Assembly (NCBI GenBank): GCA_025359915.1
Contig: JANYDE010000075.1
Location: 1-47,046, forward strand
DNA: 47,046 nucleotides
Direction: 5' to 3'
Source: Chamaesiphon sp. 336R_metabinner_41
GTDB taxonomy: Bacteria; Cyanobacteriota; Cyanobacteriia; Cyanobacteriales; Chamaesiphonaceae
Shown: positions 19,866 through 47,046 of the stretch, piece by piece
Layout of the letters: every line of letters starts with the position of its first letter
Position numbering within the stretch: position 1 is the stretch's first letter
Notes under the pieces: generated by a model
Seen by the model: only the letters and a program-made list of their open reading frames with translations
Told to the model about the DNA's origin: nothing
Database searches by the model: none
Translations under genes and position numbers: made by a program

Positions 19866-20091
19866 TTGATGAATATTTTCCTTCACACTGTAATTTTTGT
19901 CGATCGTCAAGTATCGCAAGCTACATTCTGCGATGTTAATCTTTTCATTTCTGCATTATATTTTACAGTTTATTTTCAGTAACTCAACAATTTGCACCAG
20001 AAAATATTGTTTACCACTATTTTCTTTCCCGATTGTTAAATTTCCAGGATGAGAATCTGGTGCTGAACTATCAAACATTCATCGCTACGCA

Positions 20092-20124
20092 ATAACCCCG
20101 ACTTCTCGAAGAAGTCGGGGTTAT
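20092..20124. terminator. CCCGACTT-type hairpin, terminator of porin 2
   Basis: Perfect 15-bp arms (20092-20106 and 20110-20124, core CCCCGACTTCT / AGAAGTCGGGG) with loop CGA lie 53 bases past the second porin's stop. GTCCT follows on the plus side, as in the copies at 45766 and, inverted, at 17970. Confidence 0.8.
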
Positions 20125-20176
20125 GTCCTATCCCAGTGTCAAATTAGACAACTAGAGTGGTTTAGTGAATATGAAG

Positions 20177-21919
20177 TTAAAATTTGAAGGTTGTCCGAAT
20201 AGAGCCGACATACTCAGTTGGGTTAGCACTATTATGTTCGGGATTGGTAATTAGCAATAATCCAGGCGTAATCGCAATGTTATCGCTTAATTTCAGCTTG
20301 TACAAGGCTTCAATGTGATAGGAAGTATTGGGGTTGCCAGTTGTTGCTGCGACTCCTGCACCACTACGTGAATTCAGTTTTGGTGGTACTCCCAAGACAA
20401 ATGCTAGGTTATTGCCCTTTTGACCGAAATCTGGGAAAGCTAAGGACATCGCATAGTTACTGACATTAGCATTACCACCAGCGGCTGTCTCACGATTTGC
20501 GTCAATAAAACCCGCCCAACCGGAGAGAATAAAACTAGGACTGAGTTTATAGCTAGCTAAAAATGAGTAATGATTGGCGGAGACTGGAACTGGTGCTGTT
20601 GATGACCCAAAAGGTCTGTTTGCCGCACTACTACCAGTTCCACCAGAGATATTATTTCCATCAGAACTGTAGGATCGAGCATAAACTACGCCCAGGTTGA
20701 GATCGTCGCTAGGGCGAAAACTTAACTGACTGATGATGGCACTAGAGCCATTAAATAATCCGTTACCATTAGCTGGGTTTGATGCTGTGTTACCAGGAAC
20801 TGCATAGCCAACGGCTAGCCCTAGTTCGTCACTAAACTTATGATTGAGAGTGAGAGATGCACCATCACTGCTGAGTCGGTAGACAGGGTTGAAGCGACCA
20901 AATCGAGAAATAGAACCACCACCAGAACTTTCAAGGATGGGGTTGAATGTGTACATGTTCTCGTTGAATTCACTGCCGATAGTTTCTGCAATGATTTTGG
21001 TTTGAGGACTGAGCGGGAAACTGTATTGGAGCAGGGAAACGCCCGTGCTGTTACCTTCGTCTCCATCGAAGCCCAGACGGGTCATGTTGGTGCCTGTTAC
21101 GCCACTATTGAAACTAGCGGTGTTGCGGGACTGCAATCTAGTTCTGAGCCGATCCTTACCTGTGAAGCTGGTATCGAAATTGAGTCGGACTCGATCGCTC
21201 AATGTATTACCAGTCTTACCATTTGTACCCAAATTGGTATTGCGTCCACCATAACCATTGATGCCAATAATCACTTCCCCAGCTAGTTTGGTAGTGGTGG
21301 AGAAACTTTGAGCTTTGAGTTCGGCGGTTTTCTTGTCCAGAGCTTCAATCCGAGCATCGAGACTTTGCAGCTCGGTGCTGAAAGATTGGACGAGTTGCTT
21401 GAGTCTGTCGAGATCTTGTTGGGAAACGGCTGGCTCTGCGGCTTCAACTGGTGCAGAGGGCTGAACTGATGCTGGTTCTGGCGGTGGTGTATTTTCAGGG
21501 CTAGCTGGTGGTGGTGTAACTACGGATGGATTTGGTGCTGGTGCTACCCTTCTTTTTTTGATTAATCTACGCGATTTCCTAGCAACTAGTTGCTCCATCG
21601 ATTGGACACAGCGATTGAGACTAGTTGCAAATTCTTCGCGGGATAAGACTCTATCGCCTGTCGGACTATTGCTGCAACCATATTTGGTGCTTAAAGCTTG
21701 GAGTGTTTGATATGCCCAGTCCCCAGGCTTAATATCGACAGCTTCTCTAGCTTGGCTAATTTGCTCGTCATTGACGACTAGGGAGTTGCTAGCTGCGGAG
21801 GTAACTGAATGAGTGCCAGTATTAGCCGGATTAGCTCTGGTAGGCGCAGTAGAAGCCATCCATACTGCCAGCCCAAATAAGATCGGGGATAAAATACTTC
21901 TTGATAATAGCTTGGTCAT
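20177..21919 (-). CDS. SLH-domain porin, tandem paralogue
   Basis: The 580-residue protein has the same order as the neighbouring porin: signal peptide (MTKLLSRSILSPILFGLAVW), SLH domain (VDIKPGDWAYQTLQALSTKY, then VLSREEFATSLNRCVQSMEQ), Pro/Glu-rich linker, coiled coil (LDRLKQLVQSFSTELQSLDA) and beta-barrel ending TTFKF. High likeness over the SLH, coiled coil and barrel ends shows tandem duplication, while linker and loops differ. The upstream leaders are also alike. Each copy has its own hairpin, so they are probably separately transcribed. The ATG at 21919 fits the signal peptide. Confidence 0.92.
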   Translation of the reverse strand: MTKLLSRSILSPILFGLAVWMASTAPTRANPANTGTHSVTSAASNSLVVNDEQISQAREAVDIKPGDWAYQTLQALSTKYGCSNSPTGDRVLSREEFATSLNRCVQSMEQLVARKSRRLIKKRRVAPAPNPSVVTPPPASPENTPPPEPASVQPSAPVEAAEPAVSQQDLDRLKQLVQSFSTELQSLDARIEALDKKTAELKAQSFSTTTKLAGEVIIGINGYGGRNTNLGTNGKTGNTLSDRVRLNFDTSFTGKDRLRTRLQSRNTASFNSGVTGTNMTRLGFDGDEGNSTGVSLLQYSFPLSPQTKIIAETIGSEFNENMYTFNPILESSGGGSISRFGRFNPVYRLSSDGASLTLNHKFSDELGLAVGYAVPGNTASNPANGNGLFNGSSAIISQLSFRPSDDLNLGVVYARSYSSDGNNISGGTGSSAANRPFGSSTAPVPVSANHYSFLASYKLSPSFILSGWAGFIDANRETAAGGNANVSNYAMSLAFPDFGQKGNNLAFVLGVPPKLNSRSGAGVAATTGNPNTSYHIEALYKLKLSDNIAITPGLLLITNPEHNSANPTEYVGSIRTTFKF

Positions 21920-22172
21920 TCGATCGATATTTTCCCTAGTACTGTAATTTTTTTGACTATATCGACACAGCAAGTTAATTTTTGCAGCGTTAGTCTTTAA
22001 TGATTTCTGCATGATAGTTTACAGTTTCGAGCGATACATATTAATTCCGATACATTTTCTCGATTCTGTTGGAAATGGGCGGGGTGACATGTATTATTAT
22101 GAAGTGTTAGATCTGAGTTTAATCGCGGGGGCGATCTTGGGTACTCTATAAGGAGCAGGCATAGTACAGATC

Positions 22173-35141: not shown

Positions 35142-35573
35142 TCAGGTGACTATCGTTGTTGGAATCGATGCTGAGAGAGCATTCCATACTTCTATCAACC
35201 GTTGGAATCCGATCGATTCGTAGCCACTGGCTTCGTAGCCACTGGCTTCGTATCGTTGCACCATTTGTTCCTTGATGCCTAATTTTACCGCTAAGTCTTT
35301 TTGGGTCATGCCTAAACCGATGCGCTTTTGAATTAATACCTTGGGCAAATCTTCGATCGAACCCATCGTAATTTCGACTTTACCCATTTTTAAATCATTG
35401 TATTCTTGAATCTCGGTCTGCATTTGATCGATTTGAGTCTGAAAACTATTCTGCATGGCGGCTAGTTGCTGTGCAGAAATTATTTCCGATTGCTCTAGCA
35501 ATTTTTCTAGAACTTGATGCAGTTTTTTAATTTCACCTTGGGTAATTTTATATTGATGTTCGTTTTGAATCAT
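35142..35573 (-). CDS. XRE-type helix-turn-helix protein, putative antitoxin
   Basis: The 143-residue protein has an N-terminal coiled coil (KLHQVLEKLLEQSEIISAQQ and following) and a C-terminal HTH domain: LIQKRIGLGMTQKDLAVKLG, then IKEQMVQRYEASGY. Such coiled-coil plus HTH proteins often act as antitoxins and repressors of their own operon. It follows a nucleotidyltransferase-like gene with a 10-base gap. A 15-base tandem duplication (35218-35232 and 35233-35247) inserts an extra YEASG after the recognition helix, which could change DNA binding. The antitoxin role is inferred from gene context. Confidence 0.72.
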   Translation of the reverse strand: MIQNEHQYKITQGEIKKLHQVLEKLLEQSEIISAQQLAAMQNSFQTQIDQMQTEIQEYNDLKMGKVEITMGSIEDLPKVLIQKRIGLGMTQKDLAVKLGIKEQMVQRYEASGYEASGYESIGFQRLIEVWNALSASIPTTIVT

Positions 35574-35583
35574 GATTAACTAT

Positions 35584-35940
35584 CTAAATTAAAGTATTGA
35601 GATCGATCACTACTATCCCCATCGTTTCTCCATCGCGGTTCTTTTGGAGAAATCCTTGGAATGCTGACATAAAATCCATTCGCAACTCGCATCCAAAGCG
35701 AGCATGTTGTTCCTCAAGATCTTTGAAAATAGGATTCAGTGTACTGATATCGATACTCATGCCATCAAAACAGCCATCGATGTCATTTGGGCGTTCTTTA
35801 TTGGTAACAAAACTACCACCAATATAAACCTCTTGGCAGCCAGACTGTCGAAGTAGTTTGAGTGCGAACATCAGTCCCGATAGTAGATTGACGCGACAAG
35901 AATTATACCCATATTGCTCCCAGAAATCACCCCAAACCAT
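35584..35940 (-). CDS. Nucleotidyltransferase-like protein (DUF6932-like), putative toxin
   Basis: The 118-residue protein carries the minimal nucleotidyltransferase signature: YIGGSFVTNKERPNDIDGCF, that is a Gly-Ser pair followed by a D-X-D metal motif. A partner carboxylate may be the Asp in RMDFMSAF. Length and pairing with an HTH gene resemble small NTase modules such as MNT-type toxins or antitoxins that modify RNA or protein. Start at ATG 35940. I infer the function from motif and context; the substrate is unknown. A long AT-rich spacer separates it from the AraC gene. Confidence 0.68.
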   Translation of the reverse strand: MVWGDFWEQYGYNSCRVNLLSGLMFALKLLRQSGCQEVYIGGSFVTNKERPNDIDGCFDGMSIDISTLNPIFKDLEEQHARFGCELRMDFMSAFQGFLQKNRDGETMGIVVIDLNTLI

Positions 35941-36071
35941 TACCCAAATCCCAGGTGGTAAATAGCCTCGATCGGTAAATGGTGGTATTCACTTCGTTCT
36001 CCAGCAAACATCACAAAAATATGCACTAAATATTAACTATGTTAACACAACTTTTTCGTTGGAGACTGTTG

Positions 36072-37019
36072 TTATGGCTTTTTCGTTAGATTGTTCGTTG
36101 GCGGAGCCTCTCCCTTGGAGAATCGATATTTGGCTGGCGAAATCCCATATTTTTGTCGAAAGCGGGTGGTGAAGGCACTAGGACTAGAAAATCCACACAT
36201 TTGACAGATCGTAGCGATTGGTAAGTTAGCATCTCGATCGAGTAGTAATTTAATAGCTCTTTCTAGTCGTTGCGTAATGATAAATTGATAAGGACTAATC
36301 TCCATAATTTTTTTAAATGAATGGGCGAAGACCGAAATACTTAAGTGAGCGCGTTCGGCTAGTGATTGGACGGTAATTTCTCGATCTAAATTTTGGTTGA
36401 TATAGTCGATAACTTCATCTAACTGAGATTGATGTGAATAGACTTGATAAATGATCTTGAGCGGCTGTCTGTCGGCGTAGGTACGAATTAAATGCAGACT
36501 TAGTGCCGTAGCTAATGCCTCTGTATAGAGGAGATCAGTCAGCCCATTCAAGGTAAACTCTTGTTTAAATAATTCTAGTAAATTTTTGACAACCGGATCT
36601 TTACAACCGATTAATGGCTTAAATAAAACGTCTTCTGCGGCAAAATTGGTCGAGATCAAGTTACTAACAAAGCTGGGCTGCAAATATACATGCATACACA
36701 GTGAATCATGAGACCAGCGCGAACCGGAGATCTCGTTATGGGGGATAAAGATCCACTCGCCACTAGCAATCGGATGTGGTTGAAACGTTAACCCATCAGT
36801 CGATAATTCGAGACTTGGCAGATCGCTCAGAGCCATCGAAAACGCATGGTAAGGCACAACATAAAACGGTGTTGCCATCGGTGGTAATTGATAAATCGTA
36901 ACCTGCGCGCTATGCCCCATTTTACTCATGCCCACAATCTCGGCATCTGGCACTGCCAACGTTCGCAATTCATCGAGATCGCTGATGTCGATCGGTTCTC
37001 TGTCTGGGGGGAAGTCCAT
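36072..37019 (-). CDS. AraC-family transcription regulator
   Basis: The 315-residue protein has an N-terminal ligand/dimer region (residues 1-205) and a C-terminal double HTH: LDEVIDYINQNLDREITVQS, AERAHLSISVFAHSFKKIM and the signature CGFSSPSAFTTRFRQKYGIS ending PAKYRFSK. The last codons (EAPPTNNLTKKP) are encoded inside a dispersed TTGGCGGAGCCT repeat at 36094-36121, so the natural C-terminus has been replaced or extended by repeat sequence. It diverges from the first propeller gene across a 368-base spacer, which suggests it may control that locus. Confidence 0.9.
   Translation of the reverse strand: MDFPPDREPIDISDLDELRTLAVPDAEIVGMSKMGHSAQVTIYQLPPMATPFYVVPYHAFSMALSDLPSLELSTDGLTFQPHPIASGEWIFIPHNEISGSRWSHDSLCMHVYLQPSFVSNLISTNFAAEDVLFKPLIGCKDPVVKNLLELFKQEFTLNGLTDLLYTEALATALSLHLIRTYADRQPLKIIYQVYSHQSQLDEVIDYINQNLDREITVQSLAERAHLSISVFAHSFKKIMEISPYQFIITQRLERAIKLLLDRDANLPIATICQMCGFSSPSAFTTRFRQKYGISPAKYRFSKGEAPPTNNLTKKP
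36094..36121. repeat. Dispersed repeat inside the 3' end of the AraC gene
   Basis: TTGGCGGAGCCTCTCCC, then TTGGAGAA, matches modules at 3599 and 23400. It overlaps the last codons of the AraC-type gene and contributes amino acids to it, showing that the repeat family can insert into coding ends without loss of the upstream domain. Confidence 0.7.
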
Positions 37020-37387
37020 TGCCGTACCTCGGAAATTACCTGATTGGCGGATAGCTAACTAAAGTTAGCAGCTTTGAGCAAGAAAGTTAGCAGCTTTGAG
37101 CAACAATTTTTTTCGTCGCAAGAGTATTATACTACCAGATGTCTTTTGTATCAATTTAGACCTCAATTTGCTAGCACTATCAATCCAAATCAACACGATC
37201 GAATCATCTCCATATTATCTAATCGATCGATACTTTTGTAGCGATATCTAAAAACTCTCAAATTTTCTCTAGCAAAGGATTCTAGCCAACCGAAGCACAA
37301 TTTTTCAAAAATCTTGAGATTAATGGAATATTTTGTAGGGCGGCTACGTTAATAAGTGTAGAGTGCCATTTACCCCCGATTTAGCCC
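37020..37387. other. Divergent AraC/propeller control region
   Basis: The 368-base spacer has no gene. It contains two exact tandem copies of a 21-base unit (see 37061-37104) close to the AraC start and a long AT-rich part. The propeller gene's own promoter should lie at about 37290-37380, but no clear box pair is seen. Confidence 0.55.
37061..37104. repeat. Two tandem 22-base repeats, possible operator
   Basis: AAAGTTAGCAGCTTTGAGCA occurs at 37061 and again at 37083, period 22 bases, about two DNA turns. Tandem direct repeats spaced by two turns are the usual form of AraC-family binding sites. They lie 42 bases from the AraC start, fitting autoregulation. A GCTAACT just upstream is inverted relative to AGTTAGC. 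Confidence 0.6.
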
Positions 37388-38653
37388 ATGAAAAATTTCT
37401 TCACTACTGTTACTGCGCTCCTGGGATTAGGCGCGATCGCCGCAATTCCATTCCTGCCAACCGAGGGAGTACAAGCAGGAACTAAGCCAGCAGTTTCCGA
37501 AATGCTGAAACAGCAACCGTTATCGAATAGTGTGTCTCTAGAGCAGAAGATGCTGCCAATTCAAATACTTAAGTCTAAAATTCAACCGAAACCAATCTAC
37601 ACACCAAAATCAAAATCACCATCCATAATGGATGCTATTAACAGTCGTAACGCTGAAGTGATACAAGCGAGATCGGATCGTGGTTGGACTTATTTATTTA
37701 CCCCCGACTACTTAGGTCAAAAAATTCATGTTCGGGTGGCTAGTGCTACAGGTAATGGTGCGCTCAACAATACTACTACCGATAAGGCTGAGATAGCTAC
37801 TCCCAATTGCAATCCCAATAGTGTTGTAGCCACTCAATCAACTCTATATGTAGCTTGCAATAAAGAGACGGGTAATGGAGATCGCATTCTGACTTATGAC
37901 ATTAGCAACATCACTCAACCAACTCTGAGTAAAACAATTAATAGTAATCAATTTAATAGCTTGATAGCTCTAGCTCTCGATCAGGATGGCAATCTTTGGG
38001 TTTCTAGCTATGGTAATGGTAAAATAGCCCGCATTTCCAGCAGCAGCCTCGCATCTGCTAGTCCACAAGTTGATAAAGCTTTAGCAAGTTCTCCTGCCGA
38101 ACCGACAGGGATTGCCTTCGATCCAGATGGTTCGCTCTGGGCAGCCAGCACTTATTCAAATGGACTTGTCGTCAATATTTCTGCTGCGGATCTCAACAAA
38201 TCAGGCTTAGACATTGATGCAAACCCGCGCTATTGTATCTCCAAATCTATCTCTGGTTGCAATCCCGTTGCCAGTACTTTTGACTTTCCAGAAGGCATTG
38301 CTGTTCTAAACGGGACAATTTGGGTTGCTAATAATGGCGGAGATCATCCTGGTCATAAGATGACTGCATTGCAAGTGTCAAATAGTCAGTTAACTGTCAA
38401 ACAAACCGTTGGAAGTAGTCCTGGAAACCCTTTTTCCTGTCCTGGTGGCTTATTTGCCGACGGGACAGATCTCTACATCAATGACCAAAGTTTTGGTTTG
38501 AGTAATACTGGCTGCGGTAGTAATGATGGAAAAGCAACTGCAGATGGAGTGATTAAATATGGTGGAGGTAATTTGAGCAGTACTCCAACTGTGTTTAAAG
38601 GTACAACTAGTCGTCCTGGATTTGGTGGAATTGCGTTACTGAAAATTCAATAA
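37388..38653 (+). CDS. Secreted six-cysteine beta-propeller (NHL/SMP-30-like) protein
   Basis: The 421-residue protein has a signal peptide (FFTTVTALLGLGAIAAIPFL) and a basic linker (about 31-95). The conserved module RSDRGWTYLFTPDYLGQKIH leads into a propeller domain with repeated blade motifs: LIALALDQDGNLWVSSYGNG, AEPTGIAFDPDGSLWAAST and FPEGIAVLNGTIWVANNGGD. Six cysteines (first at 141 and 157, then RYCIS, SGCNP, FSCPGG, TGCGS) match those of the second propeller and probably form three disulfides outside the cell. The NHL/SMP-30 superfamily includes lactonases and binding proteins; no metal-binding set could be assigned, so the activity is unknown. The GH5-like gene follows 11 bases later. 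Confidence 0.78.
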   Translation: MKNFFTTVTALLGLGAIAAIPFLPTEGVQAGTKPAVSEMLKQQPLSNSVSLEQKMLPIQILKSKIQPKPIYTPKSKSPSIMDAINSRNAEVIQARSDRGWTYLFTPDYLGQKIHVRVASATGNGALNNTTTDKAEIATPNCNPNSVVATQSTLYVACNKETGNGDRILTYDISNITQPTLSKTINSNQFNSLIALALDQDGNLWVSSYGNGKIARISSSSLASASPQVDKALASSPAEPTGIAFDPDGSLWAASTYSNGLVVNISAADLNKSGLDIDANPRYCISKSISGCNPVASTFDFPEGIAVLNGTIWVANNGGDHPGHKMTALQVSNSQLTVKQTVGSSPGNPFSCPGGLFADGTDLYINDQSFGLSNTGCGSNDGKATADGVIKYGGGNLSSTPTVFKGTTSRPGFGGIALLKIQ

Positions 38654-38664
38654 TTTGGAAATTA

Positions 38665-39780
38665 ATGATGTCAGATAAACTTTCTCGCAGACAAATTTTA
38701 CGATTGGGTGGTGGCTTGGCAATTGGTGCAGTGGGTACGACTTCGCTATGGAGCGGATCGTCATTAAATCAACCATCATTAGCGATCTCTACAAATTTTG
38801 GTCAGCCTGCTTTTTTTACAAGGGGGGCAAATCTTCATAATCCTTATGGCATAAAGGTTGTGCTCAAAGGAATTAACTTACCATTATTAGATGATTGGGG
38901 TTTTCCACAAAGTAACACTCTAGCAGAACTAGAGAAAACTGGTGCGAATGCCGTTCGGATTCAATGGTACAAAGATTATGGAGCGCAGAGTCGTCCCGCA
39001 TATTCTGTGGCAGATTTGGATAAATTCTTATCTGAATGTCGCAAGTTGAGTATTATTCCGATTCTGTATTTGAACGATCTTACTTGTCAAGCAGATCCAA
39101 ATTTACTCAATAGTCAATTATTACCCTGGTGGACATCCGATTCAGTCGTAAGTGTCTTAAAAAAACACGAACGCTACCTGATTATTAATCTAGCGAATGA
39201 ATTGGGTCATTATCGATGGAGTAGTAATAAAGATGAAGCCCTGGCGAATTTTGTGAATGCTTATACGATAGCGATCGCCGGAATCAGAAAGCATCTCCGA
39301 GTCCCGATCGCAATCGATGCACCTGATTGTGGTACTTCGATCGAAGTTTTTCCAAAAATTGCGCAAACGTTGATAGCGGCAGATCCACTTCACAATCTAT
39401 TATTTAGCGGACATGCTTATTGGGCGAGTTATGACGGAATGCCTTATTTTCAAGCAGCAATTAATGCTAATATACCAATGTTTTTTGGAGAAATTGCCAA
39501 TAAACAAGATGAAGAGGTAAATGGAGCAACTCAGTATTGTTATTACAATATCGATGTGCCTAGCCGGAGGAAAGCTAATTCCTTTAATTATCAATCACTG
39601 CTAACTTATCTACAATCACGTGATATAGGTTGGCTAGCATGGAGTTGGTGGAAAGACAACTGTAGCTCTCGACAAATTACTCTCAATGGCACCATGTCTG
39701 GATTGACACCTTATGGAAAGGATATAGTCGACAATCGAATCTATGGATTGAAATCGACAGCTAAAAGAGTTACTCTTTAG
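38665..39780 (+). CDS. Tat-exported GH5-type glycoside hydrolase
   Basis: The 371-residue protein begins with a twin-arginine signal (LSRRQILRLGGGLAIGAVG). The TIM-barrel domain shows GH5/cellulase-superfamily features: an early LKGINLPLLDDWG, ANAVRIQWYKD, the acid/base Glu179 in NLANELGHYRW and the nucleophile Glu276 in PMFFGEIANK, plus DIGWLAWSWWKDN at the last strand. Likely substrates are beta-1,4-linked glucans or mannans. The ATG at 38665 comes 11 bases after the propeller stop, so the two are probably co-transcribed and act together outside the cell, perhaps on sheath or foreign polysaccharide (inferred). Confidence 0.82.
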   Translation: MMSDKLSRRQILRLGGGLAIGAVGTTSLWSGSSLNQPSLAISTNFGQPAFFTRGANLHNPYGIKVVLKGINLPLLDDWGFPQSNTLAELEKTGANAVRIQWYKDYGAQSRPAYSVADLDKFLSECRKLSIIPILYLNDLTCQADPNLLNSQLLPWWTSDSVVSVLKKHERYLIINLANELGHYRWSSNKDEALANFVNAYTIAIAGIRKHLRVPIAIDAPDCGTSIEVFPKIAQTLIAADPLHNLLFSGHAYWASYDGMPYFQAAINANIPMFFGEIANKQDEEVNGATQYCYYNIDVPSRRKANSFNYQSLLTYLQSRDIGWLAWSWWKDNCSSRQITLNGTMSGLTPYGKDIVDNRIYGLKSTAKRVTL

Positions 39781-39919
39781 CAAGCTTAAGCGATCGATAT
39801 TCACTGTTTCAATCCAGAAATTTAGTGTGAAAATTTCGACCACTTCAAGTTCGACCGAGTAAACAAGCTCAATCCAATTTGACCACTAAGATAAAGCCAC
39901 TTAATAGAGAAATACGATC

Positions 39920-41089
39920 GTGAAAAATGGATTAAAGAGACTTGGATTGATGACAGCGACTATTGCAATCTCCTTAGTCAATAATATCGGATTTGGATCA
40001 TTCGATCGATTAGATGCAGCCCCAATCTATTCACTACCGGAAGAACAAGCACCCACAAATCAAACAACCCTCAATAGGCAAGATGCCGTAACTGATGCAA
40101 TTCGTAGTGCAAGTCGTACTGATCGTGGTTGGACTTACTTATTTACCCCCGATTACTCAGGTCAAAAAGTTCATATTCGCTTGATTGGTGCAACGACACG
40201 TAGTCCAGCCACTAATATTGCTATGCGAAATAGCAATCTGGATTGGGCTGTGATATCTACGCCTACTTGCAGTCCGAATAGTGTAGTCGCCACTCAGTAT
40301 ACTCTCTACGTTGCCTGTGTTGAAAATAAGATTTTAGTCTATGATATTAGCGATTCGGATAGAGTCAAAAAACCTATTTTGAGTCGAACAATTAATAGTG
40401 ATGAATTTAACGAATTGATCGCCCTAGCTCTGGATAAAAAAGGCAATCTCTGGGTATCTAGCAAAAGTAATGGCAAGATTATCCGTATTTCTAACCCCAT
40501 TACTAATCCACAAGTTGATCGAGCATTAATCAATTCACCTAATTCACCTGCTGGAATTACTTTTGATGTAAATGGTTCTCTATGGGCCGTAAGCACTGAC
40601 GGAATTGTGCTAAACATTCCCGTTTTCGAACTAAATAAAAATAGTTTAGCTATTGATGCTACCCCCACTTACTGCATGTCTAATTCTGCATCTGGTTGTG
40701 AGAAAATACCGGATAGTTATAACTATTTTGACTATCCTGAAGGAATTGCTATTCTCAACAATACAATTTGGGTATCTAGTAACGGTGACAAGCATCCAGG
40801 GCATAAATTGACCGCTTTGCAAGTATCAGGAAATAAATTAATCTTTCTCAGAACAGTCAATTCTTTTTCTTGTCCTGGTGGCTTATTTTCCGATAATAAA
40901 GATCTCTATGTTAACGACCAGAGCTATGGATTGGGTAATAACACGACATGTGGTTATAGGGATGGGCAAGCTGCCGCAGATGGAGTTCTTCGCTATCGTG
41001 GAGGGGATCTTAATGCTACTCCGACTGTTTGGGGAAAGTCTACAAGTCGCCCTGGGTTTGGGGGGATTACGGTAGTAAAGATTCAATAA
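39920..41089 (+). CDS. Secreted beta-propeller protein, second paralogue
   Basis: The 389-residue product of GTG 39920 has a signal segment (LKRLGLMTATIAISLVNNIG), the shared module RTDRGWTYLFTPDYSGQKVH and the propeller with LIALALDKKGNLWVSS, GITFDVNGSLWAVST and YPEGIAILNNTIWVSS. The six cysteines are at matching places (TPTC, YVAC, TYCM, SGCEK, FSCPGG, TTCGY). The C-terminus TSRPGFGGITVVKIQ matches its paralogues. Its 5' end is nearly identical in DNA to the third copy at 41153, so those two arose by recent duplication. A short linker replaces the longer basic linker of copy one. Confidence 0.78.
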   Translation: MKNGLKRLGLMTATIAISLVNNIGFGSFDRLDAAPIYSLPEEQAPTNQTTLNRQDAVTDAIRSASRTDRGWTYLFTPDYSGQKVHIRLIGATTRSPATNIAMRNSNLDWAVISTPTCSPNSVVATQYTLYVACVENKILVYDISDSDRVKKPILSRTINSDEFNELIALALDKKGNLWVSSKSNGKIIRISNPITNPQVDRALINSPNSPAGITFDVNGSLWAVSTDGIVLNIPVFELNKNSLAIDATPTYCMSNSASGCEKIPDSYNYFDYPEGIAILNNTIWVSSNGDKHPGHKLTALQVSGNKLIFLRTVNSFSCPGGLFSDNKDLYVNDQSYGLGNNTTCGYRDGQAAADGVLRYRGGDLNATPTVWGKSTSRPGFGGITVVKIQ

Positions 41090-41152
41090 TTTAGCGATTA
41101 ATTATTTCAAATAAGCAAAAAGCAATTTAAAATATCGAAGATAAATATAATC

Positions 41153-41433
41153 ATGAAAAATGGATTAAAAAGAATTGGATTGATGACAGCGACTATTGCA
41201 CTCTCGTTAGTCAATTATATCGAATTTGGATCGTTCGATCGAGTAGATGCCGCAGGAGTAGTCCTATCAGAACGGCAGACGGAAAGCATCGCGGCACGCC
41301 GTCCCGATCGTGGTTGGACTTACTTATTTACTCCCGACTACTTAGGTAAAAAGATCCATGTTCGTGTAATTACGCCACCTAAAATGCCCTCGATCGATTG
41401 GTCATATATATCCACATCAAATTGAAATCTAAG
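41153..41433 (+). pseudogene. 5' part of third propeller gene, cut by insertion
   Basis: Codons from ATG 41153 repeat the signal segment and module of copy two (LKRIGLMTATIALSLVNYIE, then RPDRGWTYLFTPDYLGKKIH). The match ends at DWSYISTSN with TGA (41423-41425) where the paralogues have a Cys codon, so a TGC to TGA change seems to have followed. DNA similarity continues a few bases, then the outer insertion element starts at 41434. The 3' part resumes at 44228, and about 110-120 codons of the middle are missing. The protein cannot work unless the 90-residue leader piece has its own role. Confidence 0.85.
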
Positions 41434-41551
41434 AACCTGAGTTCGATGAGGCTATGCCTCATCATCAAATCAAGTATCTGACTGCATTTGAGGCATCGCT
41501 AGCAATAGTCAAAAAGAACGTCTCGATCGATTGATTGTCAATAATTTTAAT

Positions 41552-42987
41552 GGCTCTTCATTACTTAGTATGCTCGATCGATAGCATTTTGTATAAATAA
41601 TCAAAGCAAATAAATATAATTAATGAAGGAATTCTTACTCTGACTGATAAAAAAGTACAATTTAGATATAGGTAAAATTCAGTTAAAGTACTTTTGGGGT
41701 CAAGGTAGCAAATATGAGCACAAAAAAAGAGCTTAAACTACTAACAGAACTACTAAATTTAGAAGGCGTAAAGGTATCTTCACATCGACAGTATGAAGGA
41801 ATTGGAATAATCTTACAGATCGAGGCAATCGCTAGGGAAAGTGTTTGCGGTCGCTGCGGTTTAAACAGTAGTAAATTACATCAAAATCGTTGGCACATAA
41901 TTAAAGATTTATCGTGGGGAGAGAAGGCAGTATTTTTAGAAATAAACAGAAGGCAATTTAAGTGTGAGAAATGTCGAAAACCATTTAGCGAAGAAATGGG
42001 TTTTGTGAAGGAGAGAAGAACTTATACAAAAAGACTAGCAAAAAAGACGATAGAAGAAGTTCTAGCAGATGATATAAGTAGTGTAGCAAAAAAGGGGATA
42101 GTGACAACGGAAGAAATAGAAAGAATGTTGAAGGATGCAGCGGCAAAATTATTAAAATTAAAACCAGTAGGGTTAAAAAGACTGGGAATAGATGAAATAG
42201 CTTTAATTAAAGGTCAGGGAAATTATTGTGCAGTACTAGTAGACCTAGAGCGGTCTAAATTATTGATGATCCTAGAGAGTAGAACTAAAGAAGAAATCAA
42301 GAAAGTGATACTAGAATGGGGAGCAGAAGTGTTAGCTGGAATAGAAGAGGTCAGTATAGATTTATGGAAGGGGTACAAAAGTCTAGTAACAGAAATTATG
42401 CCAAAAGCTCAAGTAGTAGCAGATAGATTTCATGTGATGGTTCAAATAAATAAAGAATTAGACATGCAGAGAAAGAAAGAAAAACGAATAATAGAGCAAA
42501 AAATCAAGCAAGCAAAAACTGAAAAAGAAAAGTTAGAGAATACAAAAATATTAGCAGGAATAACAGCTAGTAAATACGCACTGCTAAAAAATGAGAAGGA
42601 CTTAAACCAAGAGCAAAAAGACAAGCTAGCTGAAGTCAAAGTTGTTTCTCAAAGTCTCAAACTCATGCATCAACTAAAAGAGGAATTTAGAGAAATATTT
42701 GAGAAATCTCAACAGTGGTCTGAAGCATTACTTGGGCTAGGAGAGTGGCTGTCTAAAGCACAAAAATATTTTGTAAATAGCCAATCAACAATCGTGAGAT
42801 GGTTCGACGAAATACTTGCTTATTTCGATAACAGAACAACCAGTGGTATCGTTGAGGGAATTAATAACAAACTCAAGCTAATAAAGCGTTCTGCCTATGG
42901 ATTTACAAATTTTGAGAATTTCCGAAATAGATGCTTGCTTAATTGGCACTTTAATTGTTAATTCTGCATACTAAGTAATGAAGAGCC
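41552..42987 (+). mobile_element. Complete ISL3-family insertion sequence (1436 bp)
   Basis: Ends are perfect 22-bp inverted repeats: GGCTCTTCATTACTTAGTAT and two more bases at 41552-41573, complementary to 42966-42987. GGCTCTTC is typical of ISL3 termini. Exact 8-bp target duplications ATTTTAAT (41544-41551 and 42988-42995) match the 8-bp duplication usual for the family. The single transposase gene is intact. Perfect ends and duplications show a recent insertion. Confidence 0.95.
41714..42961 (+). CDS. ISL3-family transposase
   Basis: The 415-residue protein has an N-terminal zinc-binding region (CGRCG near residue 46 and CEKCRKPF near 87), an HTH-like stretch and a DDE catalytic domain: GIDEIALIKGQGNYC (first Asp), VSIDLWKGYKSLV and VVADRFHVMVQ (second Asp region), and the C-terminal Glu in TTSGIVEGINNKLKLIK with SAYGFTNFENFRNRCL. 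A Lys-rich helical insertion (about 250-300) is normal for the family. Length is typical, and the stop lies 4 bases before the right inverted repeat. It looks functional. Confidence 0.96.
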   Translation: MSTKKELKLLTELLNLEGVKVSSHRQYEGIGIILQIEAIARESVCGRCGLNSSKLHQNRWHIIKDLSWGEKAVFLEINRRQFKCEKCRKPFSEEMGFVKERRTYTKRLAKKTIEEVLADDISSVAKKGIVTTEEIERMLKDAAAKLLKLKPVGLKRLGIDEIALIKGQGNYCAVLVDLERSKLLMILESRTKEEIKKVILEWGAEVLAGIEEVSIDLWKGYKSLVTEIMPKAQVVADRFHVMVQINKELDMQRKKEKRIIEQKIKQAKTEKEKLENTKILAGITASKYALLKNEKDLNQEQKDKLAEVKVVSQSLKLMHQLKEEFREIFEKSQQWSEALLGLGEWLSKAQKYFVNSQSTIVRWFDEILAYFDNRTTSGIVEGINNKLKLIKRSAYGFTNFENFRNRCLLNWHFNC

Positions 42988-43183
42988 ATTTTAATTTATT
43001 GACAATCAATCGATATTTAATACACAAATACCAAGCACAAAGAATTAAGAATAAATAAGATTAGTAACATATGGGAAACAAACTGACAATAAAAAATACT
43101 GTAAATTATTAGAACCGTCTCTATTTGATATTGTATTCCGGTTAAATTAAAGTGTGTACCAAATCGAGTCAGTATTTTAGATT

Positions 43184-44071
43184 ATGGATTTAGTTAAACT
43201 TTTTTGTGAACTAGATGATTTCTATCAAGATTACTTGCAAACATTCTCAAACACTTTCTTTCCAGCGAATGGTAAAAACTTACCACACCATTGTCGGTTA
43301 CACCCAAGTGAAGTAATGACGATTGTTGTTCACTTTCATCAGTCAAGCTATCGAACATTTAAGGATTATTATACCAAATATGTCTGTAAATATTTAACTA
43401 ATTATTTTCCAAGTTTAGTCAGCTACAACAGAATGGTTGAATTGATGCCAAACGTATTAACCGCTTGCCTTTATTATCTCAAATCTCGTCAAGGGAAATC
43501 AACTGGAATTAGCTTTGTAGATAGTACGGCTATCCCCGTCTGTCATCCGAAAAGAATAACAAGGAACAAAGTCTTCAAAGAAACTGGCAAGCTAGGCAAG
43601 AGTTCAATGGGATGGTTTTATGGGTTTAAACTTCATTTAATTATCAATGATTCTGGAGAGATTTTAAGTTGTCACATTACACCTGGTAATGTTGATGACA
43701 GAAAACATATGCCATCGATGACTCAGGGAATATCTGGCAAGATGTTTGGAGACAAAGGATATATTAAGAAGGAATTGTTTGAGCAACTACTGAGTCGAGG
43801 CTTGCAGTTAATTACACCACTTAAATCTAATATGAAGAACAAGCTTATACCGATGAATGATAAGATCTTACTGCGCCAGCGTCCATTAATTGAGACTGTC
43901 AATGATCAGTTGAAAAATATTTCTTACTTGGTGCATTCTCGGCATCGTAGCTTACATAATTTTATGTTAAATCTAACTACTGCATTAATTGCTTATACTC
44001 ATCAACCCAAGAAGCCGAGCCTAAAATTGGATGAATCTTATCCTGATTTTTTTAGTATTGCTCCTATTTAA
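43184..44071 (+). CDS. IS982-family transposase
   Basis: The 295-residue protein has the features of IS982 transposases: HCRLHPSEVMTIVVHFHQS near the N-terminus, FVDSTAIPVCHPKRI (first catalytic Asp), GWFYGFKLHLIIND, FGDKGYIKKELFEQL (second Asp) and RPLIETVNDQLKNI (Glu). Length is normal and no stop or frameshift is seen, so it may still be active. It lies inside the outer element at 41434-44227. Confidence 0.95.
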   Translation: MDLVKLFCELDDFYQDYLQTFSNTFFPANGKNLPHHCRLHPSEVMTIVVHFHQSSYRTFKDYYTKYVCKYLTNYFPSLVSYNRMVELMPNVLTACLYYLKSRQGKSTGISFVDSTAIPVCHPKRITRNKVFKETGKLGKSSMGWFYGFKLHLIINDSGEILSCHITPGNVDDRKHMPSMTQGISGKMFGDKGYIKKELFEQLLSRGLQLITPLKSNMKNKLIPMNDKILLRQRPLIETVNDQLKNISYLVHSRHRSLHNFMLNLTTALIAYTHQPKKPSLKLDESYPDFFSIAPI

Positions 44072-44188: not shown

Positions 44189-44225
44189 CCTGAGTTCGAT
44201 GAGGCTTTGCCTCATCGAACTCAGG
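44189..44225. repeat. Palindrome at right end of outer element
   Basis: CCTGAGTTCGATGAGGC, TTT, GCCTCATCGAACTCAGG: perfect 17-bp arms with a 3-base loop. The left end at 41436 has the same first half but diverges after GCCTCATC. A palindrome within a transposon terminus is unusual. Confidence 0.85.
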
Positions 44226-44227
44226 TT

Positions 44228-44721
44228 ACAAGGGTGGACTCGTTGCAAACATTGATGCTGCTGACTTGGATAAAACTGGCTTAAATATTGATGTAAACCT
44301 GCGTTACTGTATTTCTAAAGCTGATTGTAATCCAGTTGCAAATATCTTTGATTTTCCAGAAAGAATTGCTCTCTTAAATGGAACTATTTGGGTCAGCAAT
44401 AATGGCGGAGACCATCCTGGCTACAAGATGACTGCATTGAAAGTAGTCAGTAATCAATTGACTTTCCAAAAAACTGTTGGTAGTGCTCCTGGAAGCCCTT
44501 TCTCCTGTCCTGGTGGATTATTTTCAGATGGCAAATATCTGTACATCAACGACCAAAGTTTTGGTTTGAATAGTACTGGTTGTGGGAATGGCGATGAACA
44601 AGCAAATACAAATGGAGTCATTAGATATAGTGGGGGCGATCTTACCAGCAGTCCGAAGTTGTTTAGACTTAGCACCAGTCGTCCTGGGTTTGGTGGAATT
44701 ACAGTATTAAAGATTAAATGA
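44228..44721 (+). pseudogene. 3' part of third propeller gene
   Basis: From about 44227 the frame YKGGLVANIDAADLDKTGL aligns with the middle of propeller one (YSNGLVVNISAADLNKSGL) and continues through FDFPERIALLNGTIWVSNNG, the FSCPGG cysteine motif and the C-terminus TSRPGFGGITVLKIK. It lacks the signal, the first blades and two of six cysteines. A TTG at 44266 could start 151 codons but no promoter or export signal is present. Together with 41153-41433 it is one gene disrupted by the nested insertion. Confidence 0.88.
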
Positions 44722-44790
44722 TTTAATCGATCTGTAGCCCGATTCTGTAATTCTTAATCTAACTTTCATTAATGAATTTCAGGAGATCGA

Positions 44791-44886
44791 GTGAATAAAC
44801 AATATTTATCTGTTTGTTTATTCACATTAGGGATTGTGACTCTAAGTTTAGGATCTCTAGTCATGATAATCCAATGCCGAGAATAA
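44791..44886 (+). pseudogene. Truncated leader copy of the DUF3421 protein
   Basis: A GTG at 44791 with a good ribosome-binding site (AGGAGATC) encodes 31 residues: NKQYLSVCLFTLGIVTLSLG followed by SLVMIIQCRE and stop. This closely follows the signal peptide of the next gene (TALGIAIVSLGSLVTMIQPA) but ends where the mature protein should start. It is best read as a remnant of a tandem duplicate, or less likely as a tiny secreted or leader peptide for the downstream gene. Confidence 0.6.
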
Positions 44887-44981: not shown

Positions 44982-45524
44982 GTGAAAAATAAGATGATGA
45001 ATAGCAAGTACGTATCTGGATTAGTAACAGCATTAGGCATCGCGATCGTAAGTTTAGGATCTCTAGTAACAATGATCCAACCAGCATTAGCAGATTACCG
45101 ATGGGTACCTGGCAGGAATGGTTCTGTCCCTTCAGGAGCGATCAAAGGGGGTTTTGATAATGGAGATTTGTATGTTTGCAAAGTTAATAATACGAATGGA
45201 AAATTACATCCTAAGTACGGAAGATGTTATATACCCTACGAAGGAAAAGAGCAAGAATTCACAACTTATGAAGTACTAGTCGGTACTGATATTGATTGGT
45301 TTTCAACTTATTATAGCTCCATGCCTAGAAATCCGATCGTCACTGGATATGAGCAAAACGGAACCCCATTATACGCTTGCAGAAGCCGTCTTCAGGTGGG
45401 ACAAAAAACATTGCTAATGCCTGGGAAATATAATGATTTCAACAAAACATGTTACTTACCTTACGGTGGGAAAGAGCATGAAGTTCGTCTTCCCGTTGAG
45501 ATCGTGGTTAATGTCAAAGGGTAG
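44982..45524 (+). CDS. Secreted DUF3421 (DM9-repeat) protein
   Basis: The 180-residue protein starts with GTG (ribosome site TTAGGAGAGC). It has a signal peptide (LVTALGIAIVSLGSLVTMIQ, cut near ALADYRW) and then two DM9-like repeats: DYRWVPGRNGSVPSGAIKGG with LYVCKVNNTNGKLHP, and PRNPIVTGYEQNGTPLYACR with PGKYNDFNKTCYLPYGGKEH. Four cysteines pair within the repeats. DUF3421/DM9 domains occur in animal and bacterial secreted proteins, some binding mannose-type glycans (family knowledge). Here it may be a lectin-like exported protein, which would suit its neighbours. Preceded by a truncated duplicate. Confidence 0.82.
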   Translation: MKNKMMNSKYVSGLVTALGIAIVSLGSLVTMIQPALADYRWVPGRNGSVPSGAIKGGFDNGDLYVCKVNNTNGKLHPKYGRCYIPYEGKEQEFTTYEVLVGTDIDWFSTYYSSMPRNPIVTGYEQNGTPLYACRSRLQVGQKTLLMPGKYNDFNKTCYLPYGGKEHEVRLPVEIVVNVKG

Positions 45525-45831: not shown

Positions 45832-46086
45832 ATGATGCTCAAAAATATTAGTCGATCGATCTTAATCGGCTTAATTACACCATTAAGTGCAATCTCTATT
45901 CAACCAGCCGCTCATGCTGCAACAGCATTTTGCAATCAGACAGCCTTCCCAGTTGAAGTCGCCTATGCCAGAGGAACATTCGATCCGCGACCTTCGATTC
46001 AGAGTACTAATTATCAGATTAAAGGCTGGTTAAACATCGATCCAGGTGCCTGCACCACAGCTTCTACCCAGGGTGAACGCACTTAA
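45832..46086 (+). CDS. Secreted DUF1036-like protein, probably truncated
   Basis: The 84-residue protein has a signal peptide (ILIGLITPLSAISIQPAAHA) and the start of a DUF1036 domain: AFCNQTAFPVEVAYARG, then IKGWLNIDPGACTTA. DUF1036 proteins normally run on for several more strands after the PGxC motif. Here the frame ends in STQGERT and a stop, and no continuation was found in the other frames before the transposase gene 130 bases downstream. A small membrane-facing or extracellular role is unknown. Truncation linked to the nearby insertion sequence is likely. Confidence 0.65.
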   Translation: MMLKNISRSILIGLITPLSAISIQPAAHAATAFCNQTAFPVEVAYARGTFDPRPSIQSTNYQIKGWLNIDPGACTTASTQGERT

Positions 46087-46215: not shown

Positions 46216-47046
46216 ATGAAGCTAAAGCCTAAGTATAGTATAGCAGAACACTTTGACGACATAGAAGACATTAGAATTGAACGTGGAAAAAAACACAAAC
46301 TAATAGATATTATCACGATCTCCATTTGTGCTGTAGTATGCGGAGCGGATGGATGGATAGATATAGAAATGGATGGTATCGCCAGAAAAAAATGGTTGGG
46401 TAAATTTCTAGAACTTCCGAATGTAATACCATCTCATGATACATTTGCCAGAGTATTTTCACAAATCGACCCTGATGAATTTAACAAATCTTTTCTGAGT
46501 TGGGTTAAAGGAATATCTAAAATTACAGCAGGAGAGATAATTGCCTTTGATGGAAAACAATCTCGAAATTCAGGAGATGAAAAGAATGATAGAGGTGTAA
46601 TTAACACAGTTAGTGCTTGGGCTGCAAGTAATAGATTAGTGCTAGGTCAAAAGAAAGTAGAAGGGAAATCTAATGAAATCACAGCACTTCCAGAACTGAT
46701 AAAAATTTTAGATTTAACAGGATGTATCGTTACGATTGATGCAATGGGGTGTCAAAGAGAAATAGTCAAAAAGATTGTCGAAAAAAATGCTGATTATGTA
46801 ATTGCGGTGAAAAAGAATCAACCAACTTTGTACGAACAAATAAAGCAGCTATTTAAACAGGCAATTGAAACTCATGGAAAAGACCTCAGCATGAGTAGCT
46901 TCAAAAGTAGTGAGATGAATAGAGGTAGAGAAGAAATTCGTAATTACTTAATGCTAACAGATATCAAGAAATGGATAGATCCATTGGAAAAGTGGGAGAA
47001 CTTAACTAGTATTGGCATGGTAGAATCGGTTCGAGTTGTGAATGAA
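46216..47046 (+). CDS. ISAs1-family transposase, 5' part (runs off window)
   Basis: From the ATG at 46216, 277 codons stay open to the window end. The protein has the N-terminal DDE-associated region (AEHFDDIEDIRIERGKKHKL, then IISICAVVCGADGW-like: here TISICAVVCGADGWIDI) and IPSHDTFARVFSQIDPDEF. The catalytic part includes IIAFDGKQSRNS (first Asp), VNTVSAWAASNRLVLGQKKV-like segment, ALPELIKILDLTGCIVTIDA with MGCQ (second Asp) and DYVIAVKKNQPTLYEQI. These match the H-repeat/ISAs1 family. The missing 3' end should carry the final Glu. The left end of the element must lie between 46087 and 46215 but was not identified. Confidence 0.92.
   Translation, partial: MKLKPKYSIAEHFDDIEDIRIERGKKHKLIDIITISICAVVCGADGWIDIEMDGIARKKWLGKFLELPNVIPSHDTFARVFSQIDPDEFNKSFLSWVKGISKITAGEIIAFDGKQSRNSGDEKNDRGVINTVSAWAASNRLVLGQKKVEGKSNEITALPELIKILDLTGCIVTIDAMGCQREIVKKIVEKNADYVIAVKKNQPTLYEQIKQLFKQAIETHGKDLSMSSFKSSEMNRGREEIRNYLMLTDIKKWIDPLEKWENLTSIGMVESVRVVNE

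Follow-up and report, generated by a model that had tools for sequence, protein, structure and literature searches.

A possible exported glycan-cutting and glycan-binding cassette beside an AraC-family gene in a variable, insertion sequence-rich island of Chamaesiphon

Results

Two related propeller genes enclose a GH5 gene

Contig JANYDE010000075.1 of the Chamaesiphon sp. 336R_metabinner_41 assembly (GCA_025359915.1), analyzed here over its full 47,046 nucleotides (the window; contig C30 of a 169-contig, 4.23-Mb assembly), carries, divergent from an AraC-family regulator gene, genes for two paralogous, exported propeller proteins and, between them, a gene for an exported glycoside hydrolase of family 5 (GH5). 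The reading that we prefer, tentatively and with somewhat less than even confidence, is that the locus represents an AraC-linked, locally duplicated, exported cassette for cutting and binding glycans, situated in a variable island rich in insertion sequences (ISs). An original prediction, made from the nucleotide sequence, had portrayed these genes as a coherent secreted set, and each gene that it named was recovered in place by gene listing and Pfam scan. As shown below, its proposal of exported proteins that accompany a GH5 enzyme is supported, also by constraint on the propellers, whereas an association of AraC, propeller and GH5 as such is not supported. The core of the cassette consists of:

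37388-38653, + strand: propeller 1, an exported six-cysteine protein, predicted six-bladed NHL/YWTD-type (PF01436, 33.9 bits; cut-off 20)
38665-39780, + strand: Tat-type GH5 glycoside hydrolase (PF00150, E 3.9e-11, 43.4 bits; cut-off 23.5)
39920-41089, + strand: propeller 2, a paralog of propeller 1 (PF01436, 24.7 bits; cut-off 20)

The two propellers are 59.8% identical over 343 aligned residues, and the six cysteines of propeller 1 (residues 141, 157, 283, 291, 351 and 376) recur at matching positions in propeller 2. With nonsynonymous and synonymous divergences (dN/dS) of 0.335/1.406, about 0.24, the paralogs are under constraint, and both intact copies look selectively maintained. Export was assessed by a crude signal rule, which propeller 1, propeller 2, the GH5 protein and a DM9-domain protein encoded further downstream all pass (4/4), and by reading the N-termini, which are signal-like, by eye. 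The predicted exported six-cysteine propeller and its second copy are thus borne out by the NHL profile, the cysteines and the signal rule.

Structure prediction for the six-cysteine domain, proposed at the outset as a check, returned a propeller fold. The AlphaFold2 model (predicted template modeling score [pTM] 0.70, mean predicted local distance difference test [pLDDT] 67.4, low confidence for the first 93 residues) was computed from an input of four rows, two of them fragments. Its top structural match is 1npe_A from a nidogen/laminin complex (Z 27.3, root-mean-square deviation [rmsd] 2.5, 251 aligned residues), followed by a designed Pizza protein (Z 27.0) and by LRP4 and LRP6 domains from 26.6 down, all within 3 Z; rows at most 1 Z apart were counted as tied. 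Extracellular propellers rank highest, other propellers match too, and we take the top-ranking structures to be six-bladed. The fold, together with export and the company of the genes, would be consistent with sugar binding by the propellers.

The original prediction had also suggested that the propellers might process sugars released by the GH5 enzyme, which would make them enzymes, for instance of lactonase or lyase type. Propeller 1 gives matches to the SGL (21.7 bits; cut-off 26.3), Lactonase (16 bits; cut-off 21.7) and virginiamycin B lyase (Vgb_lyase, PF24684; 29.2 bits; cut-off 50) profiles, and the 6-phosphogluconolactonase structure 6nau is among the Foldseek matches of the model. However, all three profile scores remain below the curated cut-offs, and when solved structures were searched by sequence, designed Pizza propellers came first, ahead of weaker matches to streptogramin or virginiamycin B lyases (~1e-05); we consider an enzymatic role of this kind very improbable. 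The score against the ScyD/ScyE family (NF033206) was 27.1 bits, with a cut-off of 80. A viral fold search with the propeller returned generic propellers and was set aside.

Relatives of the propeller were scarce. Weak matches occurred in two of the other 59 genomes in a set of 60 relatives (best 1.4e-4), and one weak match (6.3e-7) in the other 385 of 386 genomes of the phylum. Contig scans, which rely on exact hits to short peptides and so overlook more divergent relatives, gave four loci with weak generic propellers in the genome_contigs collection and no confirmed relative in viral contigs, and none was found in plasmids or phages. Four cyanobacterial weak matches, with zero to two cysteines and NHL repeats of another kind, were rejected as family members.

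The GH5 protein is related to β-mannanases

The GH5 gene starts 11 bases after the propeller 1 stop codon, a gap that suggests one transcript. Its product carries a twin-arginine motif, SRRQIL, at the N-terminus, while the Pfam TAT profile scores below its cut-off (12 of 22.7 bits); the PF00150 match confirms the GH5-like hydrolase that had been predicted at this distance, and the motif fits export by twin-arginine translocation (Tat). Among eight relatives with solved structures, six are named mannanases, one an endoglucanase and one cellulose-binding family II; the nearest is the β-mannanase 3wsu (E 1.1e-13), and 1bqc and 1wky also match. Residues R98, N178-E179, H250, Y252 and E276 are kept in all 18 aligned GH5 rows, the window's included, and the acid/base E179 (NE motif) and the nucleophile E276 align with glutamates in 3wsu and 4fk9 and in 17/17 relatives. 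Family membership and these residues support glycan cutting by the putative enzyme. No module beyond the GH5 domain scores above cut-off.

In a search of 20 genomes, the other 19, including all eight congeners (three of them 77-89% complete), lacked a GH5 match, and among 386 genomes of the phylum matches were found in three others, all from lineage group f33, which would correspond to the Nostocaceae. A relative on a Streptomyces plasmid (L015:6001-6934), 51.6% identical to the GH5 protein, is split over two frames and is probably a broken gene. No match was obtained in viral contigs with short exact peptide patterns. The GH5 tree leaves the branching place of the window copy unsettled, and a structure model from the single sequence was poor (pTM 0.47) and was not used.

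This distribution bears on the alternative that the locus serves housekeeping of the cell's own sheath, with the GH5 enzyme trimming self-made extracellular polysaccharide and the propellers acting as structural sheath proteins. Attached cyanobacteria make sheaths, and the cassette has no adjoining uptake genes, both in keeping with such a role. Yet the absence of GH5 from 8/8 congeners searched, three of which are 77-89% complete, and of the propeller from seven of them with one weak match in the eighth, would be odd for a sheath function, and the two glycosyltransferase genes among the window genes scanned both lie at least 20 kb from araC. We therefore regard own-sheath housekeeping as unlikely.

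GH5 genes of Nostocaceae adjoin an AAA_35-WD40 gene

For the survey of gene neighborhoods, 217 f33 genomes were searched with a Nostocaceae GH5 query (1e-20), and 208 genomes, not an identical sample, were searched for the AAA_35-WD40 gene described below. Fifteen of the 217 genomes match GH5; the match in G511 is a 91-residue remnant, and 15 intact loci are spread over the remaining 14 genomes; 12 of these loci show 57-59% identity to the window GH5, with the twin-arginine motif present in the clade. In 14 of the 15 intact loci (L022, L023, L025, L061-L071), GH5 adjoins a gene that encodes AAA_35 and WD40 domains (domain scans made on L063 and L070), the exception being L024, the second GH5 copy of genome G137. 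The adjoining gene encodes 1159-1176 residues (1069 in L061, with a broken frame), and its AAA_35 half is 74-98% identical to that of L063 in the other 12 loci and 55% identical in L070. It lies 10-27 bases upstream of GH5 in 12 loci, 44 bases downstream in L069 and convergent in L070.

In seven of eight genomes searched for paralogs, the GH5-linked form of the AAA_35-WD40 gene is 80-100% identical to the query and all other matches reach at most 60%; the eighth, G511, has distant matches only. At 1e-200, 19 of 208 genomes contain the AAA_35-WD40 gene, including 13 of the 14 with intact GH5, and the remaining one, G536, has the divergent L070 neighbor. Six genomes with a close AAA_35-WD40 relative have no GH5 among the matches listed and none in the fetched stretch. 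In two of these six, a GH44 gene lies beside the AAA_35-WD40 gene (L106:10526-12241 and L108:10685-12499; PF12891, E 1.2e-74 and 1e-76), and both GH44 proteins have a signal-like N-terminus as read by eye; in the other four, no glycanase was recognized beside it among those neighboring genes that were scanned. The window's own genome contains WD40 and AAA_35 relatives, none of them on this contig. A possible third component, an AAA_35 gene that carries additional sequence at its N-terminal end, occurs in 7/22 GH5 or AAA_35-WD40 loci versus 1/20 controls and was dismissed as too patchy.

By the crude signal rule, the 15 GH5 loci (221 kb) contain 50 small exported candidates, four of which are the GH5 proteins themselves. 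As controls, 10 AAA_35 paralog loci drawn from five genomes contain 13 candidates, and 10 regions placed arbitrarily in three of these genomes contain 11, each control set covering 150 kb. Among the families listed for the 46 non-GH5 candidates (25 of 33), AbfB, CBM_4_9 and DUF5648 appear three times each, Tectonin twice and LGFP once; none of these five is among the families listed (25 of 70) for the 24 control candidates. The Tectonin propellers, which belong to another family than those of the window, are in L025 and L071, beside a distant GH5 type. A resemblance of an exported repeat protein in L069 to lectin propellers was not counted, as a PDB sequence search was empty and Pfam matches were unconvincing. 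The neighborhood survey envisaged in the original prediction thus recovered a recurrent proximity of the GH5 family to exported proteins of carbohydrate-binding type, but no tie to the AraC or the propeller of the window.

A tandem 22-base repeat lies in the araC leader

The divergent side of the locus comprises:

36072-37019, - strand: AraC-family regulator gene, divergent from the cassette (PF12833, E 7e-21; PF00165, E 3.7e-18)
37061-37082 and 37083-37104, no strand assigned: two adjacent 22-base direct repeats, 21/22 identical
37126-37154, - strand: sigma-70-like promoter-like site for araC, TTGATA-17-TATAAT (consensus match only)

The C-terminal helix-turn-helix region of the regulator passes PF12833 with 74.8 bits (cut-off 33.6). 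When the intergenic region was shuffled 1000 times with dinucleotides preserved, adjacent 22-mers matched at no more than 17/22 positions, and the 18-base core of the repeats (at most two mismatches) is found nowhere else in the 4.23-Mb assembly. The divergent AraC gene with tandem direct repeats is as the original prediction had described it. The promoter-like site matches the consensus at 11/12 positions and is the best of 22 such sites in 36000-41200 (13.4 expected). The repeats lie between the araC start and this site, in the araC leader, and about 280 bases from the propeller 1 start. By position and period, the tandem site is probably an AraC operator.

A search of 20 genomes at 1e-30 gave no match to this AraC in the 19 others, and a distant AraC match (26% identity) was seen in one of 16 GH5 loci blasted, 5.7 kb from GH5. 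The proposed association of AraC, propeller and GH5 as such is not supported, given that neither AraC nor the propeller travels with GH5 in the survey. Separately, one of the six AAA_35-WD40 loci that lack GH5 also contains an AraC-family gene (L104:4009-5034; PF12833, E 2.5e-23), ~2.4 kb away from the AAA_35-WD40 gene.

A third propeller copy is broken by insertion elements and followed by a DM9 gene

Downstream of propeller 2, and absent from the original prediction, lie a third propeller copy in two pieces, split by ISL3 and IS982 insertions, and a gene for a DM9-domain protein:

41153-41425, + strand: propeller 3 N-terminal remnant, signal-like region and domain start (own-genome search; 65.9% identical to copy 2 over 88 residues)
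41434-41463, no strand assigned: small hairpin element, truncated, beside the left break in propeller 3 (28 bases that recur almost unchanged at 44189-44216)
41526-43014, + strand: ISL3 insertion element (PF01610, E 1.4e-63; ISL3 equivalog model)
43184-44071, + strand: IS982-family transposase (NF033520, E 6.1e-77)
44189-44227, no strand assigned: the hairpin element in intact form, beside the right break in propeller 3 (17-base arms, 100% complementary, 3-base loop)
44230-44721, + strand: propeller 3 C-terminal remnant (69.6% identical to copy 1; match from copy 1 residue 252)
44982-45524, + strand: exported DM9-domain protein, candidate mannose lectin (PF11901, E 4e-33, 114.2 bits; cut-off 26.2)

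About 130 residues have been lost between the two propeller 3 pieces. The C-terminal piece shares more residues with copy 1 (69.6%) than it does with copy 2 (59.0%), whereas the N-terminal piece resembles copy 2, its 73.5% identity to copy 1 extending over just 34 residues; this mosaic suggests recombination among the propeller copies. The last four of the six cysteines are present in matching order in the remnant, the C-terminal piece of which has no PF01436 match, and dN/dS between copy 1 and this C-terminus is 0.187/0.973. Within the ISL3 element, the ends of which are approximate, the transposase occupies 41714-42961, with inverted repeats within 41526-41573 and 42966-43014.

The DM9 gene follows propeller 3, and its product has a signal-like N-terminus that passes the crude signal rule. 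It matches the chains of the oyster lectin CGL1 (5id8) with E 1.1e-07. The CGL1 paper (PMC4932603) gives Asp22, Lys43 and Glu59 as side-chain ligands of mannose in site A; counted along the pairwise alignment with 5id8, Lys43 and Glu59 of this set are kept and Asp22 is replaced by Glu. The DM9 neighbor may thus point, weakly, to mannose-bearing glycans. As a side observation, positions 44788-44886 resemble the DM9 signal region when read by eye and may be what is left of a DM9 duplicate.

The cassette lies in a lineage-specific island

The UbiA-family gene of the window is taken to be the chlorophyll synthase gene (chlG). It and the genes upstream are common to congeners, whereas the block after 34.9 kb is absent beside chlG (2.1-12.2 kb compared) in 5/5 congeneric contigs, three of which have another neighbor at this place and two a third kind. 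GC content is 0.34-0.42 from 34 kb onward versus 0.41-0.48 before. The different congener neighbors, the drop in GC and the IS elements mark a lineage-specific, IS-rich stretch; the cassette is within this variable island, the right edge of which lies beyond the window. A second chlG copy of the bin, on contig G000:C67 (L039), and 99.2% identity over 7227 bases between that contig and congener contig G002:C143 (L041) indicate that the bin is probably mixed. Further features of the window are:

18039-22012, - strand: two adjacent OprB-family porin genes (family match)
35142-35940, - strand: HTH_3 protein and DUF6932 protein genes, an adjacent pair between chlG and araC with a toxin-antitoxin-like layout
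45838-46086: short DUF1036 fragment after the DM9 gene
46216-47046: transposase-like frame, start only, cut short by the end of the contig (read by eye)

In such a hypervariable setting, a transferred GH5 gene may have landed between tandem propeller genes, as chance neighbors with no joint function. The other genes beside chlG in congeners, the lower GC content, and the two transposase genes and hairpin element within the array would all be expected on this account, as would a propeller without close homolog, an AraC that is not conserved with GH5 and the different company of GH5 genes in Nostocaceae. The 11-base junction between propeller 1 and GH5 and the constraint on the propellers argue against it, however, as does the repeated occurrence of GH5 relatives near exported proteins of carbohydrate-binding type. 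We judge an accidental arrangement to be rather unlikely.

Discussion

We favor an AraC-linked cassette in which the Tat-exported GH5 enzyme would most likely cleave a β-mannan-like or β-1,4-linked polysaccharide outside the cytoplasm, while the exported six-cysteine propellers, duplicated and partly recombined, might serve as stable, lectin-like partners that hold the enzyme or the cell to the substrate. AraC would probably repress its own gene via the tandem 22-base site, and a sugar or a surface cue may lead it to switch the cassette on the divergent side. Sugar binding by the propellers, the nature of the substrate, the joint regulation of the genes and the target, which might be an algal or microbial surface rather than the cell itself, are the more conjectural parts of this scheme.

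Several observations weigh against it. All 967 chains aligned to the propeller model reach Z ≥8, so the model says propeller and little about function, and no close propeller homolog was found in the genomes searched, which puts the propeller-GH5 association beyond a comparative test. In the GH5 protein, N137 takes the place of the histidine of the V/L-H-D motif, which is kept in 3wsu, 4fk9 and 4y7e and which we take to be canonical in GH5. This histidine is replaced in 13/13 close cyanobacterial members (N in one, W in six, G in three, A in two, S in one), whereas three more distant relatives from cyanobacteria, two from plasmids and the one from the Streptomyces plasmid keep it; its loss may have altered the chemistry of the enzyme, and with it activity or specificity. 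The crude signal rule flags some cytosolic proteins, and the GH5 loci share descent, such that the counts of exported candidates are not independent. Because the repeats lie between araC and its promoter-like site, far from the propeller start, they fit negative autoregulation of araC better than activation of the propeller gene. With a dead propeller 3 and two transposase genes in the array, the island may be decaying. Finally, no transporter was recognized by Pfam among ten genes scanned at 35-46 kb, two OprB porins lie at least 14 kb from the cassette, and the cluster lacks the dedicated uptake genes of a polysaccharide utilization locus.

On a broader scale, the window and the Nostocaceae loci might be variants of a modular exported glycan arsenal of cyanobacteria, in which an interchangeable glycanase (a Tat GH5 or a signal-bearing GH44) is combined with a fast-turning, lectin-like battery (tectonin, AbfB, CBM, LGFP, DM9 and the orphan six-cysteine propellers). 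A cytosolic AAA_35-WD40 switch would govern the arsenal in Nostocaceae, and AraC in the lineage studied here, and its targets would be surfaces of algae, of grazers or of competing organisms. We offer this generalization as speculation that is unlikely to hold.

In a literature search of titles and abstract openings, from which subscription papers were mostly absent, none of the matches listed dealt with an AraC-propeller-GH5 locus or a cyanobacterial GH5 with AAA_35-WD40. A six-cysteine propeller without close relative in the genomes searched, present as constrained duplicates around a GH5 gene, makes a new family of exported proteins accessible to study. In addition, the GH5 clade has lost an active-site histidine to other residues and is linked, in Nostocaceae, to an AAA_35-WD40 gene and to exported proteins of carbohydrate-binding type. 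This raises the testable question of how cyanobacteria act on extracellular glycans, foreign or their own, which none of the papers listed took up, as judged from titles and abstract openings.

Each component has a known counterpart from which it departs. The window GH5 belongs to the same Pfam family as the GH5 β-mannanases 3wsu, 1bqc, 1wky and 2whl, and its catalytic glutamate pair and His-X-Tyr motif align in 3wsu, 4fk9 and 4y7e, although the nucleophile of 4y7e is Ala; it differs by its twin-arginine signal and by the lost histidine at N137. The Nostocaceae loci found here share the GH5 clade, the twin-arginine motif and nearby exported proteins of carbohydrate-binding type with the window, but their partner is an AAA_35-WD40 protein; in its place, the window contains AraC and an exported propeller of unrelated type. 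In outline, we infer, these Nostocaceae loci are also like the NTP-dependent conflict systems of multicellular bacteria (PMC7159879), in which STAND-type NTPases occur with variable partners; the main text of that paper uses neither "glycosyl hydrolase" nor "glycoside hydrolase", and no MoxR, vWA or VMAP match was obtained for the ten genes of the window that were scanned at 35-46 kb. With the oyster DM9 lectin CGL1, as described in PMC4932603, the window protein has in common a DM9 pair and, by the residue count along the alignment, two of three site-A mannose side-chain ligands, but it is bacterial, has a signal-like N-terminus and carries Glu in place of Asp22. The window propellers, in turn, share fold and NHL repeat signature with NHL/YWTD propellers (PF01436), including nidogen and LRP domains, from which they are set apart as a stand-alone, exported form with six conserved cysteines.

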